Assembly: GCF_900215655.1 (NCBI RefSeq)
Contig: NZ_OBEN01000003.1
Location: forward strand, 1 to 64,000
Length of the DNA: 64,000 bases
Direction: 5' to 3'
Source of the DNA: Hydrogenobacter hydrogenophilus
GTDB taxonomy: Bacteria > Aquificota > Aquificia > Aquificales > Aquificaceae
This document shows, in pieces, positions 16,731 through 36,823 of the stretch. The notes beneath the pieces were generated by a model. That model saw only the letters and a program-made list of their open reading frames with translations. It was not told where the DNA came from and made no database searches. Positions within the stretch are counted from its first letter, which is position 1; every line of letters begins with the position of its first letter. Position numbers and translations under genes: made by a program.

Positions 16731-19076
16731 TTACATTATATTCTTATCTCCAGGTATCTTGCTGGCAAGGTATAAAAGTTCGTAAAGGATACCACTTAGT
16801 CCCATAGTATAATCACCATGACTCCTTCTTAGCTTTATGTATAGGTTTTTCTTCTTCTGCCAGAGTTCTAATTTAGCGTAAGGTGTTTGGAATGACTCGC
16901 TTTCGTATTGAGAAAGAGCAAGGATTGTAAGCAAAAACAAACTTTTCTTTTCCATATAGACCTCGTCCTTCTCCCACCCTGGACCTTCCGTTGAAAAAAC
17001 TTGAAGGGCAGAATGGTAAAACCACTCACCATTTAAAGAAAGTTGGTCATTGTTCTTGGGGTCTGCTGGTTTTAGTGCTATGCTTACAGTATGTTTTTGG
17101 GTGTTTATTTTTAACTCTTTTTTGAGATTTTCAAATTCGCTGGTGTAAATCACAAAACAGTCCTCAGATGCCTTCTCCGAAATATAGGCAATAGGTATCT
17201 CGTCATACTCTACAAAAATACTTTGTTTTCTTATTCTTTCCTCCTGAGAAGACCTGCTTATTATGTCATTTATAAATGATTCCTCTTTTTTGCTTGCGGT
17301 TATAAAGCAAAACCTTTTGTTGTTTCCCACCCTATCTTCTATCCACTTGATTATCCTATCCCTTTCAAAATCAACTCCACCGGCAAGCACTATAAACTTG
17401 TCATCTATTTCAATCCTTACCTTACTACCTTTTATGTGCACAAGGTATGCTTCGTAAAGGTAATGTCTGAAAACTTTCTGATTATTAGGATTGAATCTCT
17501 CATAACAAAAGCCCGCAGAAGGCTTTTCAAGAATTACATAAACTGTCAATTCCTCTGGCACCTTAAAGTCCTCAAAATCAAACTCAAGACTCTTGAGGTC
17601 TTTCATAAGGCTTATAAAAAGGTTTTTGTAAATACCTTGTATTCCACTAACCTTACCCTCTCCGTATTTAACAAAATTATTTATGGTTTGCTTGTTCAAA
17701 GTTTGTACTGGCAAGCTGAAAAAGTCGTAAGCAAGGGAAAAGTGGTCCCAAAAAGGATAGCTACCGTTTGCCTCACGCACATCCGTATCAAGAAGCAGAA
17801 GGATAGCATGAGGTTTTTTCCTTTCCTTTGACAGTTCTACAAATCCCTTTAGCCTTGCTATAAAGTAAAGCAAATCAAATAGCAAAATTTTTGATTCATG
17901 AAGCCCTAATTCACCCTTTGAGTAATCTATCTTTTTTAGCTCCTCAAAGTGGGGTATAAGGTGGTCAAGGCTAAACTTCTTGTTTATGCTTAGCTTAATC
18001 CCTCCCGTAAATTTTTGATACTCTTCTATAGCTTTTTCAAAACCTTTTTTAAAGCCTTCTAACTTTTCTTCCAGGCTTTTTTCGTAAAATACAAAAACCT
18101 CAACTTCTTTCTCTGGAATGCTGAAAACTCCATAGCTCAGCTTACCCTCCACCTGCTGTCCCTTTTGAACAAAAACACCAACAGTTTTATCTTTTCTTCC
18201 TCCTTTTAAAAGCTCTTTGAGAACTTCCTTCCAATCCCTTCGGAGCCTTTCTAAGAATTTCTCATCACACGCTTTATTAAGTAAGTCTTTTAAAAGTTTT
18301 TCTTCTATAGCATACTTCACATCTTCCCACAGGCTTTTGCTATACCGTTCTATCTCTTGAAGAAGTTCGTCAGGCGTTTTTTCTCTTCTAAAAAGTCTTG
18401 CTCTGCTTAAAAGTATAGCATTCTCAAAGGTGGAAAAGTCAAAAGGTGCAAGACAACTCAACAGTTTGGATATGGGTGGGCTTTTAAAATCACCCGGAGC
18501 AAGATCACTCTCAAGCCTCTCTGAAAAAGAAATAACAGCATGGAGGTAGCTTTTTACTTCATTGTCGTTGGTTAAGTCTTTCCAAAGCCTAAGAAGTGTT
18601 TTTCTAAGTTCCCATACCTTTTCCTTACTTAGTTTTTCCTCACCTGTTTCTGGTGGTGTAATAAGCCTTAAAAACACAAGCCCAGAGCTTTTGCTGAATT
18701 TTCCGTATGTAGAAACCTCACCCGCTCTTATATGCATGTATTTATCTTTTCTTTGCCTGTAGAAGAAAGCGTTCCTGTCTTTTTTAAAAAGCTCACGAGG
18801 TTTATACCACAAAACCTTATCCTTGAGGTAAATAGCTTGACCTTTTAGTTTGTACTCTTTTTTTTCTATAAACTCATTAAACTCTTTTTGTAAGGTTTGC
18901 CAGTCCTTAGGGTTTTTTATGAGTTTGTCAAGCAGTATAGCCAAGCCTTCCCTTAGGTTGTCTTCAACAGGATAGAAAAAACCTGCATATACAAAGTTTT
19001 TACTTGGTGTAAGTCCCTTTGAAAAAAATTCCATACATTCCAATTTTTCCCGTGCACTTAATTCAAACCCGCTCAT
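16731..19076 (-). CDS. Predicted Argonaute/PIWI-like protein of a two-gene module
   Basis: A 781-residue protein I do not recognise by name. Residues ~320-370 resemble the helical run before MID domains of prokaryotic Argonautes. Residues ~423-493 resemble MID: a hydrophobic strand (HAILLLLDTD), then SLPVQTLNKQTINN and GIYKNLFISLMKDL, matching the order 'sQ..tl...N.al.l..Kl'. Residues ~510-750 could be a PIWI domain: strands TVYVILEKP and KRFCFITASKKEES, then KKSLFLLTILALSQ and TPYAKLELW as in the PIWI C-terminus. The DEDX acidic residues are not evident, so it is probably catalytically dead. The start overlaps the helicase stop (TAATG). A homology search should decide; other non-Argonaute folds are possible. 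Confidence 0.55.
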   Translation of the reverse strand: MSGFELSAREKLECMEFFSKGLTPSKNFVYAGFFYPVEDNLREGLAILLDKLIKNPKDWQTLQKEFNEFIEKKEYKLKGQAIYLKDKVLWYKPRELFKKDRNAFFYRQRKDKYMHIRAGEVSTYGKFSKSSGLVFLRLITPPETGEEKLSKEKVWELRKTLLRLWKDLTNDNEVKSYLHAVISFSERLESDLAPGDFKSPPISKLLSCLAPFDFSTFENAILLSRARLFRREKTPDELLQEIERYSKSLWEDVKYAIEEKLLKDLLNKACDEKFLERLRRDWKEVLKELLKGGRKDKTVGVFVQKGQQVEGKLSYGVFSIPEKEVEVFVFYEKSLEEKLEGFKKGFEKAIEEYQKFTGGIKLSINKKFSLDHLIPHFEELKKIDYSKGELGLHESKILLFDLLYFIARLKGFVELSKERKKPHAILLLLDTDVREANGSYPFWDHFSLAYDFFSLPVQTLNKQTINNFVKYGEGKVSGIQGIYKNLFISLMKDLKSLEFDFEDFKVPEELTVYVILEKPSAGFCYERFNPNNQKVFRHYLYEAYLVHIKGSKVRIEIDDKFIVLAGGVDFERDRIIKWIEDRVGNNKRFCFITASKKEESFINDIISRSSQEERIRKQSIFVEYDEIPIAYISEKASEDCFVIYTSEFENLKKELKINTQKHTVSIALKPADPKNNDQLSLNGEWFYHSALQVFSTEGPGWEKDEVYMEKKSLFLLTILALSQYESESFQTPYAKLELWQKKKNLYIKLRRSHGDYTMGLSGILYELLYLASKIPGDKNIM

Positions 19077-22000
19077 TACGATCCCTCCAAAAGCCCTTTT
19101 ATAAATTCTACAGGAAACTTTACAAACCTTCCACTTAACACTTCAGTGTAGGGGTAATCTTCTGTTAAAGTGATACAGGCATATTCATTTCCACCCACAT
19201 CGCCAACATAACACTTGGTCATTGGTTCTACAGTTCCCATAAGTACATCTGCACCACCTCTTCCTATCCTTCCTTTTACCTTAAACTCCACCTTCTCTTT
19301 GGGTTTTAAGAAGTGCCTTACCAACACCAACGCATATACGGGTACAAGCACGGGAACTTGGTCTTCTTGTCCTGGTAAAAGCTTCCCCATCATCTCTTGC
19401 AACTCTTTAGTTTTGTCTTCGTTGTGCTTTTCAAGAATAGGTTTTAGCTTTTCTACGAGCTCTTCCGCTTTCCTCCTTTTTTTGGCATCAAAGCTTGAAC
19501 GAAGCTTTTGTCTACTAAAGAGCAAATAAGGATGAAAGTAGTTTTCATAAGAGCCTATTTTTAAGTTCACCACGCTTACAGAGAGAGCCTTAAGGAGAGT
19601 TTCCCTGAGCTCGTCAAGGTCCTTGTCTTTTTCTATCTGATATAGACCATCTATGAAGTTAAGCACACCTTCAATTTCAGAGATACTGTTGGGTATATAG
19701 TAAGTTTTGTATTGGTTAGGTAAAGGCACAAGCACAGTTCCATCAGAGCTTTTAAGAAACTGCTGTATTATTCTTGAAATTACAAAGTCCAGTTCAAGCC
19801 TTTGTTCTATACTGTGTTTTCTGTAAAGCAATTCAATTACTTGTCCATCTACCTTTTCCTCGTCAAGGTATTCCTCAATATGATCCAGTATGTATTCGGT
19901 AGTAGGCGGTATCACATATATAAGGTGCAGAGTTTTTGTTTCTTGCTCTGTTTTTTTGTCTCCCCTTGCTCGGGATATGGATTGGATTAGTTCCACAAGA
20001 TTGTTCTCTATGCCCCAGTCGTAGATGACTGCGTATATGTGATTTACTGGTTTATGCTCCCTGCTCAGGTCTATGCCACGAGATATGGCGGAAGTAGAAA
20101 GGATTATGTCCTGGTGCCCTTTATTTATACTCTCCTGACTTTTCCTTGAGTCCGCTGTAGCTACGAGAGTTTCAAAGCCTTTACTTTTTAGTTCTCTTTC
20201 AAGCTCAGCTAAGTCATCTTTGTTCTGAATGAACATAAGAGCTGTGCTTTTCTCTTTGTCAGTAAATGTTCTTTCTACGATCTGTGCAAGCTTACAGATA
20301 AGCTCTTTTCTTCTTTCTTCAAGTTTTGTTTTTTCAAGAAACACAAACCTTCTTACTAAATTCATCTTCGGAGAAGGGTATCCGTGCTTGGCAAAGCAAT
20401 AGAGTTTTATGCCTTTGTATTCAAAAGACATTTCCTGTTTAAATTCTGTCAGTACTATCGCACTGGGTATAACTTCAAACCTTTCATACTCTTTCAAAAG
20501 CTTTTCAAGAAGTGCTGGTGTGTATCCGTTAGCATCAAAAATGTAAAGATTAGCTCTTCCCCCTTTTTGTTCTATTTCCTCTAATAACTTCAAAAGTTCC
20601 CCTACGGCAAAAAGACCATTCTGGTGTCCTAAAAACTCATCAAGTATAAAGTGGAAGGTATAGTTCTCACGAATTCGTCCCGACAGAAGATAATCCTTAA
20701 TGTGCTCCGTTGTGCTTCTTCCTACATGTGTGTTTACTATAGCTTGCTGTGTCAAAAAAGCCCAAATAAAGCGTCTTCCATCTTTTGTAGTGGCACTTTT
20801 AACTTTGTCTACTGTTCTTCTTATTATGCCGGACTGAAAAGAAATATCTTGAGCTGTATCTCCCTTCATTTTTACCTTCTTGGCTCTTTCAGTTTCAGCA
20901 GTAGTCTTTTTTTCATAAATAAGCTCTAAATCCCGTCTTTGTGTTGCTTTTAAGGTTTGATATTCTCTATCTACAAGCACCTTGCGGGTTGCAAAGTAAA
21001 AAACTATGTGATTTCCTTCCAAGTTAAGTATCAAATCTCTTGTTTGGGAAGTTTTTCCGCTCCCTGCAGAATGAAGAAGACATATGGCTTTAACGGGCTG
21101 ATCCAACTGTAAAAACCACTCGAGTCTTTCCTTCACATCCTTCCTTGCCTGCTCTATGGGGTCTGGTTCTATATCTAATACTTCCTCTTCTCTTCTCTTC
21201 ACTTCTTGAATAAGGTCCTCTATTTTTTCCTGAGTTTCTTTGATTAGTCTGCTTATTCTTGCTTTTGAGGTGGCGTCTACTTCTTCATACTCCCAGGTTT
21301 TTTCTCTTATTTTATCGTATAGCTCTCTAACTTTTTCTCTATAAGGTTCTAAACTATTTCCTTCAAGGTAAAAGCGAGCAACAAATGGCTCCGCAAGAGG
21401 GTAAAGCAAAGAAAGACAAACTTCTTTTAGATCTTCTCTTGGGTTCTCAGAAAGGTAATCCACCGCATAGGAAAGAACTTGCAAAAAGCCTTTTAGCTCT
21501 GTTGACGCAGATTTAAGGGTAAGTAGCTTGTCTTCAACATTGAGAACATTTCGCACAAACCTTTCAAAGTTTAGCTCTCCCAAAGATAGATTAACTGGAA
21601 GACCATAGACTTTGTAAGGGATACTATCTTCCTTGGTAGTGAAAAGCTTATTTATTCTACTGTATGCACCAGCCAGCTTAAAATCAACAACATAAAGCGT
21701 GTCGTCCGCTACAAAGAGCAAGTCTGTGTTGTGATATATACCTGCCTTTAAGCTCTCTTCACCTATGTGATACTTTATAAGCTCTAGTTTTTTAAGCTTT
21801 TTCTGATAAAAATATCCTTCGTAGTAGCCGGTAAGGAAAAGAAATAAGAGGTAGTTATGCAAAGAGTTTTCATGTCCTAAGGCTGTTAGTTCTTTTGGAG
21901 GGTTTTCCGTAGGTTCAAAAGGTATGTTTCTTTCAAGGAGTTCCAGAGCAGGAAGGCAGGCATGCTTTCCTTCAAGACTTTCTATCTCTCCTCTTAACTT

Positions 22001-22114
22001 CGCAAAAACCTGCTTTTGCTTAAAACTATCGTAATCTTCAACTCTGTCCTTTAAAAAGCCAAGCTTAAAAGCACACTCAAAAACAAGCCCTAAAAAGCTT
22101 ACCTCCCACTTCAT
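19076..22114 (-). CDS. Cas4/RecB-type nuclease fused to an SF2 helicase
   Basis: A 1012-residue protein. Residues ~115-220 show a PD-(D/E)XK nuclease core: Asp131 in TDLLFV, Asp144-x-Lys146 in VVDFK, and Q212-x3-Y216 in QVLSY, as in RecB/Cas4 nucleases. A charged helical linker (~280-320) leads to an SF2 motor with Walker A HSAGSGKT (348-355), DEFL box (492-495), motif V STSAISRGID (673-682) and motif VI QSISRARG (711-718). About 250 further residues are uncharacterised. It is probably a DNA translocase-nuclease working with the overlapping Argonaute-like protein. No Shine-Dalgarno is seen before ATG at 22114. It is not Cas3 (no HD domain) and lacks DinG-type Fe-S cysteines. Confidence 0.75.
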   Translation of the reverse strand: MKWEVSFLGLVFECAFKLGFLKDRVEDYDSFKQKQVFAKLRGEIESLEGKHACLPALELLERNIPFEPTENPPKELTALGHENSLHNYLLFLFLTGYYEGYFYQKKLKKLELIKYHIGEESLKAGIYHNTDLLFVADDTLYVVDFKLAGAYSRINKLFTTKEDSIPYKVYGLPVNLSLGELNFERFVRNVLNVEDKLLTLKSASTELKGFLQVLSYAVDYLSENPREDLKEVCLSLLYPLAEPFVARFYLEGNSLEPYREKVRELYDKIREKTWEYEEVDATSKARISRLIKETQEKIEDLIQEVKRREEEVLDIEPDPIEQARKDVKERLEWFLQLDQPVKAICLLHSAGSGKTSQTRDLILNLEGNHIVFYFATRKVLVDREYQTLKATQRRDLELIYEKKTTAETERAKKVKMKGDTAQDISFQSGIIRRTVDKVKSATTKDGRRFIWAFLTQQAIVNTHVGRSTTEHIKDYLLSGRIRENYTFHFILDEFLGHQNGLFAVGELLKLLEEIEQKGGRANLYIFDANGYTPALLEKLLKEYERFEVIPSAIVLTEFKQEMSFEYKGIKLYCFAKHGYPSPKMNLVRRFVFLEKTKLEERRKELICKLAQIVERTFTDKEKSTALMFIQNKDDLAELERELKSKGFETLVATADSRKSQESINKGHQDIILSTSAISRGIDLSREHKPVNHIYAVIYDWGIENNLVELIQSISRARGDKKTEQETKTLHLIYVIPPTTEYILDHIEEYLDEEKVDGQVIELLYRKHSIEQRLELDFVISRIIQQFLKSSDGTVLVPLPNQYKTYYIPNSISEIEGVLNFIDGLYQIEKDKDLDELRETLLKALSVSVVNLKIGSYENYFHPYLLFSRQKLRSSFDAKKRRKAEELVEKLKPILEKHNEDKTKELQEMMGKLLPGQEDQVPVLVPVYALVLVRHFLKPKEKVEFKVKGRIGRGGADVLMGTVEPMTKCYVGDVGGNEYACITLTEDYPYTEVLSGRFVKFPVEFIKGLLEGS

Positions 22115-36723: not shown

Positions 36724-36823
36724 TGGCGGGAGAGTAAGGGAATCGAACCCTCCGGGGACCGCATCCAGCGACCCCCCACGGGATTTGAAGTCCCGGGGCG
36801 GCACCAGCCAGCCACACTCTCCC
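36724..36823 (-). tRNA. selC: tRNA-Sec (anticodon TCA)
   Basis: Exactly 100 nt including an encoded CCA. The 8-bp acceptor stem is GGGAGAGT/ACTCTCCC, discriminator G. Anticodon stem CGGGA/TCCCG encloses loop CTTCAAA, so the anticodon is TCA (36788-36786), reading UGA. A long variable arm and GGTTCGATTCC T-loop are visible. The first base coincides with the last base of the TAG stop of the upstream gene, so the tRNA must be cut out of the formate dehydrogenase operon transcript unless it has an internal promoter. Confidence 0.96.

Follow-up and report, generated by a model that had tools for sequence, protein, structure and literature searches.

A conserved gene pair of Aquificota encoding a predicted Argonaute-like protein and a nuclease-helicase, a putative guide-directed interference module

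Two adjacent minus-strand genes of Hydrogenobacter hydrogenophilus (Aquificaceae) were analysed in a window comprising the first 64,000 nucleotides (nt) of contig NZ_OBEN01000003.1, from a genome of 1.6 megabases. The first gene codes for a nuclease-helicase of 1012 amino acids and is followed by a gene for an Argonaute-like (Ago-like) protein of 781 amino acids, the stop codon of one and the start codon of the other having a single base in common (Table 1). The coordinates, strand, protein lengths and 1-nt overlap given in a preliminary description of this DNA were correct. Both reading frames stay open at 36-66% identity across many genomes, so that chance is not a credible explanation for the gene pair, and the closest public relative with the pair is a Hydrogenobacter metagenome-assembled genome (MAG). 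In the window the pair sits between a cell-wall (penicillin-binding) gene and an RNase H gene (rnhC).

The 1012-residue protein was modelled with AlphaFold2 at a predicted local distance difference test (pLDDT) value of 81.9 and a predicted template modelling score (pTM) of 0.80. Its nuclease motifs at residues 131-216 precede a helicase at residues 340-740. The nuclease residues named in the preliminary description (D131, D144-x-K146 and Q212-x3-Y216) are as given there, and D131, D144, K146, E206, Q212 and Y216 were invariant in 14 aligned homologues with identities down to 23%. The protein is a helicase of superfamily 2 (SF2), as had been proposed, with conserved Walker A and DExx (D492 and E493) motifs, a conserved motif VI (QxxxRxR at residues 711-717) and a Helicase_C domain found by Pfam in all 12 helicase members, of which six also matched ResIII and four DEAD. 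Foldseek matches of the helicase model included RecQ, MrfA, DinG and Hel308, while single-protein and profile sequence searches of the PDB gave only weak helicase matches. No cysteine was invariant in the helicase family alignment and the helicase is therefore not of the DinG iron-sulphur type, in agreement with the earlier reading.

An AlphaFold2 model of the 781-residue protein was built from 14 sequences (mean pLDDT 76.9, pTM 0.78) with low confidence for residues 1-39. All 39 Foldseek matches of this model in the PDB at E<=1e-3 were Argonaute or PIWI structures with Foldseek probabilities of 0.99-1.00, the best being the Rhodobacter sphaeroides Argonaute (RsAgo) at E=2e-7 over 688 alignment columns. 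AfAgo, which consists of MID and PIWI only, was matched with template modelling scores (TM-scores) of 0.44-0.48 on the AfAgo length. TM-scores normalised on the query length were low (0.23-0.31), and the claim is therefore membership of a superfamily and not a close match: the protein is predicted to belong to the Argonaute/PIWI superfamily with a MID-PIWI fold. The MID-like and PIWI-like regions first recognised from sequence patterns were thus backed by predicted secondary structure and by Foldseek, and the structure prediction proposed at that time as a check returned an Argonaute/PIWI fold.

Sequence-based recognition of the Ago-like protein was poor. No family in Pfam or NCBIfam recognised it, the latter giving nothing useful, and the Piwi model PF02171 had no match above its cut-off in the genome concerned or among 11 family members. 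The PADLOC model for prokaryotic Argonautes (pAgos) weakly matched residues 308-470 (E=0.0022) and weakly matched two of the 11 family members, at best with 7e-5. Single-protein and profile searches of PDB sequences found no relative, and a Foldseek search of a viral library with the model found no protein at E<=1e-3.

Within the MID region Y440, W443, P456, Q458, T459, K484 and N485 were invariant among 16-18 aligned homologues, and Q458, K484 and N485 are candidate residues of a pocket for the guide 5' end. The glutamine and lysine are 26 residues apart, a spacing that we take to agree with Q137 and K163 in the pocket of AfAgo. The invariance of this core points to nucleic acid binding by the Ago-like protein. 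No DEDX tetrad is evident in the PIWI-like region, as the preliminary description had noted, and not a single aspartate is invariant in residues 300-781 across 18 homologues. The invariant E517 was placed at the end of the first PIWI strand, 17 of the 18 homologues carry D or E at residue 599, and K735, R751 and E766 are invariant. Of these, E517, D/E599 and K735 occupy candidate catalytic positions. Given the lack of an invariant aspartate and the invariant lysine near the fourth catalytic position, slicing has probably been lost. The earlier label of a catalytically dead protein is accordingly likely as a prediction, but two acidic positions (E517 and D/E599) persist, and the PIWI-like domain may still bind metal.

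The Ago profile matched 22 of 136 Aquificota genomes, a patchy presence, and strong helicase matches were found in 20 of those same 22 genomes. The two genes were adjacent with the helicase first in all 20, counting intact and partial pairs, which upheld the co-occurrence across related genomes on which the preliminary description had staked its proposal. The two genomes with an Ago match and no helicase hold fragments: in G008 a piece of about 46 residues where a contig ends, and in G077 one of 295 residues left by an internal deletion. Intergenic gaps ranged from -152 to +3 nt in the 12 relatives measured, where the -152 case may reflect the choice of start codon. The Ago and helicase trees were compatible at well-supported forks and the pairwise identities of the two proteins were correlated (r=0.97 over 78 pairs). 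Neither tree tracks kinship, as G003 lies far from G000 of the same genus and G053, from another family, clusters with G000, G001 and G004.

More divergent candidate pairs occur elsewhere in the phylum, one with a 915-residue helicase followed by a 790-residue partner (L120:7696-12820) and one in swapped order with a 754-residue partner followed by a 916-residue helicase (L121:5220-10244). Both helicases matched the family profile at about 1e-40, while the partners resembled the Ago profile at a sub-significant level, in collinear fashion along most of the L121 protein and within the MID region of the L120 protein. With E-L-T standing in both pairs where the family has the nuclease D-x-K, their nucleases may be inactive or rearranged. 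Related helicases of 1162 amino acids without an Ago neighbour are present at L045:9613-13101 and L047:9413-12898, with the QxxxY motif retained and the catalytic lysine replaced (D-L-S).

The genes bordering the pair are unrelated between most copies. A conserved insertion site was considered and rejected because in three congeners rnhC and a transporter gene remain neighbours but the pair and the penicillin-binding gene are both absent next to rnhC; in a fourth the contig ends too soon to be informative. A contig binned as Candidatus Caldipriscus, of another phylum, carries a copy of the pair (L051:7986-13065) whose DNA is 86-89% identical to that of Thermocrinis copies. The match extends from 27 nt into the helicase gene to the Ago stop codon, the Ago reading frame is broken, and the adjoining Obg gene has at most 52% identity to any of 37 Aquificota genomes and is clearly of non-Aquificota origin. 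With the match bounded by the two genes and so divergent a neighbour, exactly these two genes were apparently transferred across phyla, unless the MAG contig is chimeric. The pair is accordingly regarded as a mobile module.

Defence genes adjoin four copies of the pair (Table 1). In the closest relative a type III-A CRISPR effector operon with Cas10, Csm3 and Csm5 follows immediately downstream of the pair (L034:558-7032), and at L040:738-6338 the pair is accompanied by a defence cluster of a type IIG restriction-methylase and a gene for an OLD/AriA-like ATPase. Broken or deleted copies were found in several genomes (L051, L056 and G077), as expected of a costly defence system; ApsAB has been inactivated repeatedly under plasmid selection. 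At L122:7248-8135 the Ago gene is reduced to its two ends, fused in frame. Scans of viral contigs found no relative, the lone match (L084) being a type I restriction subunit, and none of the plasmid records matched the helicase.

Among known systems, the long-B inactive pAgos with associated nucleases, such as those of the AgaN type, include RsAgo, a long pAgo that is catalytically inactive and the best structural match. They resemble the pair in an inactive PIWI domain with a separate effector and differ in that the Aquificota effector is a helicase-nuclease fusion and the Ago-like sequence is not recognised by the Piwi model. Operons of pAgos with the DEAD-box/PD-(D/E)XK orthogroups og_34 and og_37, predicted to be helicases with nuclease motifs, have been described by Ryazansky et al. 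2018 (PMC6299218); compared by description, their Argonaute is a recognisable pAgo. The pairing of an inactive Argonaute with a helicase-nuclease is itself of a known kind. A literature search found only DdmDE (PMC12409362) and ApsAB (PMC11096173) characterised as such, both in mesophiles and both with proven anti-plasmid activity. The preliminary description had missed them when it treated the two-gene architecture as unfamiliar, and what holds of its novelty is the nuclease-then-helicase order which, like the Aquificota lineage and the transfer of the module between phyla, is not described in those papers.

The pair is similar to DdmDE of Vibrio cholerae and others in forming a two-gene operon with the helicase-nuclease upstream of an inactive Argonaute-like protein, but DdmE has been reported without a MID motif (PMC11096173) whereas the MID core is kept in Aquificota. 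ApsAB of Escherichia coli ST38, required for plasmid loss, likewise joins a nuclease/helicase with a divergent Argonaute-like protein that has a conserved MID motif (PMC11096173). That motif reads Y-x3-K...QG...K in ApsB, of which the Aquificota family retains Q458 and K484, with a threonine following the glutamine in place of the glycine. Hna, a helicase-nuclease fusion acting alone (PMC13381803), shares the SF2 helicase, the fused PD-(D/E)XK nuclease and a role in defence. It is a single gene with no Ago partner, its nuclease is C-terminal and its helicase DinG-like, and it was set aside as a parent family on its domain order and helicase type.

By analogy with DdmDE and ApsAB, we consider it fairly likely that the pair is a two-protein, guide-directed interference module acting against plasmids or phages. 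In favour of this reading stand the predicted Argonaute fold, the invariant MID core, the lack of an invariant PIWI aspartate, the invariant nuclease and helicase motifs, the strict pairing with compatible trees, the patchy and mobile distribution and the defence genes beside four copies. With a short nucleic acid guide bound in its MID pocket, the Ago-like protein would pair that guide with invading DNA, most likely of a plasmid or phage, without cutting. It would then recruit the co-encoded helicase, which would load on the exposed strand, translocate, and degrade or nick the DNA with its own N-terminal nuclease. Guide use, recruitment, DNA as the target and a plasmid or phage as its source are what we infer from genes and predicted structures. 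Several of the results weigh against such a module. The lysine of the usual Y-x3-K in the MID motif is absent from the Ago-like family, and an hhalign comparison of the family with the canonical pAgos of the phylum, using shallow alignments, was not significant. The Cas4/RecB type first assigned to the nuclease agrees with its motif set and with the order of the PD-(D/E)XK core, but a similar comparison with the Cas4 proteins of the phylum was not significant, again with shallow alignments. DdmD has an N-terminal helicase and a C-terminal PD-(D/E)XK nuclease, while ApsA, a larger protein whose active-site residues lie at 1420-1435, has a central helicase and a C-terminal nuclease, so that the order is reversed in Aquificota relative to both. 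DdmD and DdmE entries were absent from the best 50 Foldseek matches and from the PDB sequence searches, the presence of such entries in the libraries being unconfirmed, and the window copy is bordered by housekeeping genes. Compared by published descriptions, the pair was filed under neither DdmDE nor ApsAB because its effector has another domain order and its Ago-like protein shares just part of the ApsB MID motif.

If the helicase-nuclease were the main enzyme of an abortive-infection type of phage defence, as in Hna, Nhi and Hachiman, the Ago-like protein would serve as a sensor or regulator that is not loaded with a guide. The independent action of Hna (PMC13381803) and the distant helicase relatives at L045 and L047 that have no Ago neighbour fit such a role, but an Ago gene accompanies the helicase in 20 of 20 pairs, the MID core is conserved in the manner of a nucleic acid binder, and Hna differs in domain order and helicase type, which makes this explanation unlikely. 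An RNA-guided system of the pPIWI-RE type, acting on R-loops of transcribed invaders, appears distinctly improbable. PIWI-RE operons also combine an Argonaute-like protein with a helicase and a nuclease (PMC3702460), and R751 and E766 are invariant in the Aquificota family, yet those operons have three genes with a DinG helicase and a separate nuclease or restriction endonuclease, whereas here there are two genes, a fused nuclease and a helicase with Helicase_C, ResIII or DEAD matches and no invariant cysteine. The pPIWI-RE models of Pfam, moreover, matched none of 11 members at E<=0.1.

The cell-wall and RNase H genes on either side of the window copy would suit a housekeeping function on the chromosome, serving replication or repair at high temperature, but we regard this as very unlikely given the patchy presence (22/136), the unrelated flanks, the transfer across lineages and phyla and the several decayed copies. 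The assignment to Argonaute could also be an artefact of a model made from a shallow alignment, in view of its 14 sequences, its modest mean pLDDT, the low TM-scores on query length and the lack of a significant sequence-profile match. That only Ago/PIWI structures were matched at E<=1e-3, with high probability and RsAgo at the top, and that the MID glutamine and the lysine-asparagine pair are invariant with an Argonaute-like spacing, leave little room for such an error.

A broader proposal, put forward tentatively, is that thermophiles possess, in the pair and its divergent relatives at L120 and L121, a programmable DNA degrader of an independent class. In such a class an inactive Argonaute, whose pocket for the guide 5' end is unusual in lacking the Y-x3-K lysine, would recruit a helicase with its nuclease at the opposite end from that of DdmD and ApsA, and the coupling of unwinding to cutting would be of separate origin. 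A thermostable system whose effector is permuted would allow a test of whether the pairing of an Argonaute with a helicase-nuclease evolved more than once, would probe how Argonautes recruit helicases and choose guides, and might yield stable complexes for structural work and programmable DNA degradation at high temperature.

Table 1. Features of the gene pair in the window and defence genes beside other copies
Feature	Position	Strand	Basis or content
Gene 1, nuclease-helicase (P0002)	19076..22114	(-)	1012 amino acids; AlphaFold2 model and homologues; SF2 by Foldseek and Pfam
PD-(D/E)XK (RecB/Cas4-like) nuclease region, residues 85-250	21365..21862	(-)	core strand/helix order in model; invariant motifs
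D131, nuclease motif	21722..21724	(-)	invariant
D144-F-K146, nuclease motif	21677..21685	(-)	D and K invariant
Q212-x3-Y216 motif	21467..21481	(-)	Q and Y invariant
Helicase Walker A HSAGSGKT, residues 348-355 (including K354)	21050..21073	(-)	conserved
Helicase motif II DEFL, residues 492-495	20630..20641	(-)	D492 and E493 invariant
Helicase_C domain, residues 613-716	19967..20278	(-)	Pfam PF00271, E=1.1e-6
Conserved C-terminal domain, residues 757-1012	19079..19846	(-)	AlphaFold2 model; YHP, RIGRGGA and EVLSGRF stretches conserved; DUF-like
TAATG stop/start overlap of genes 1 and 2, one base common	19074..19078	(-)	read on minus strand 19078-19074
Gene 2, Argonaute-like protein (P0001)	16731..19076	(-)	781 amino acids; AlphaFold2 model; PDB matches Ago/PIWI by Foldseek
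N-terminal lobe, residues 1-300, N/PAZ-like position	18177..19076	(-)	Foldseek alignment to RsAgo; label based on position
MID-like domain, residues 421-495	17592..17816	(-)	Rossmann-like beta/alpha order in predicted secondary structure; invariant residues
Q458, candidate guide 5'-end pocket residue	17703..17705	(-)	invariant
K484-N485, candidate guide 5'-end pocket residues	17622..17627	(-)	invariant
PIWI-like domain, residues 496-773	16758..17591	(-)	RNase H-like strand order; no invariant Asp
E517, near first PIWI catalytic position	17526..17528	(-)	invariant; position inferred from motif and secondary structure
K735, near fourth PIWI catalytic position	16872..16874	(-)	invariant; position inferred from motif
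Neighbours of the pair in G001			type III-A CRISPR genes
Neighbours of the pair in G027			type IIG restriction enzyme and AriA-like ATPase
Neighbour of the pair in G077			DrmD-like/PLD helicase
Neighbour of the pair in G031			PDC-S09 protein

Elsewhere in the window, a tRNA-Sec gene with the anticodon tca was located on the minus strand at 36724-36823 and was the sole tRNA found.

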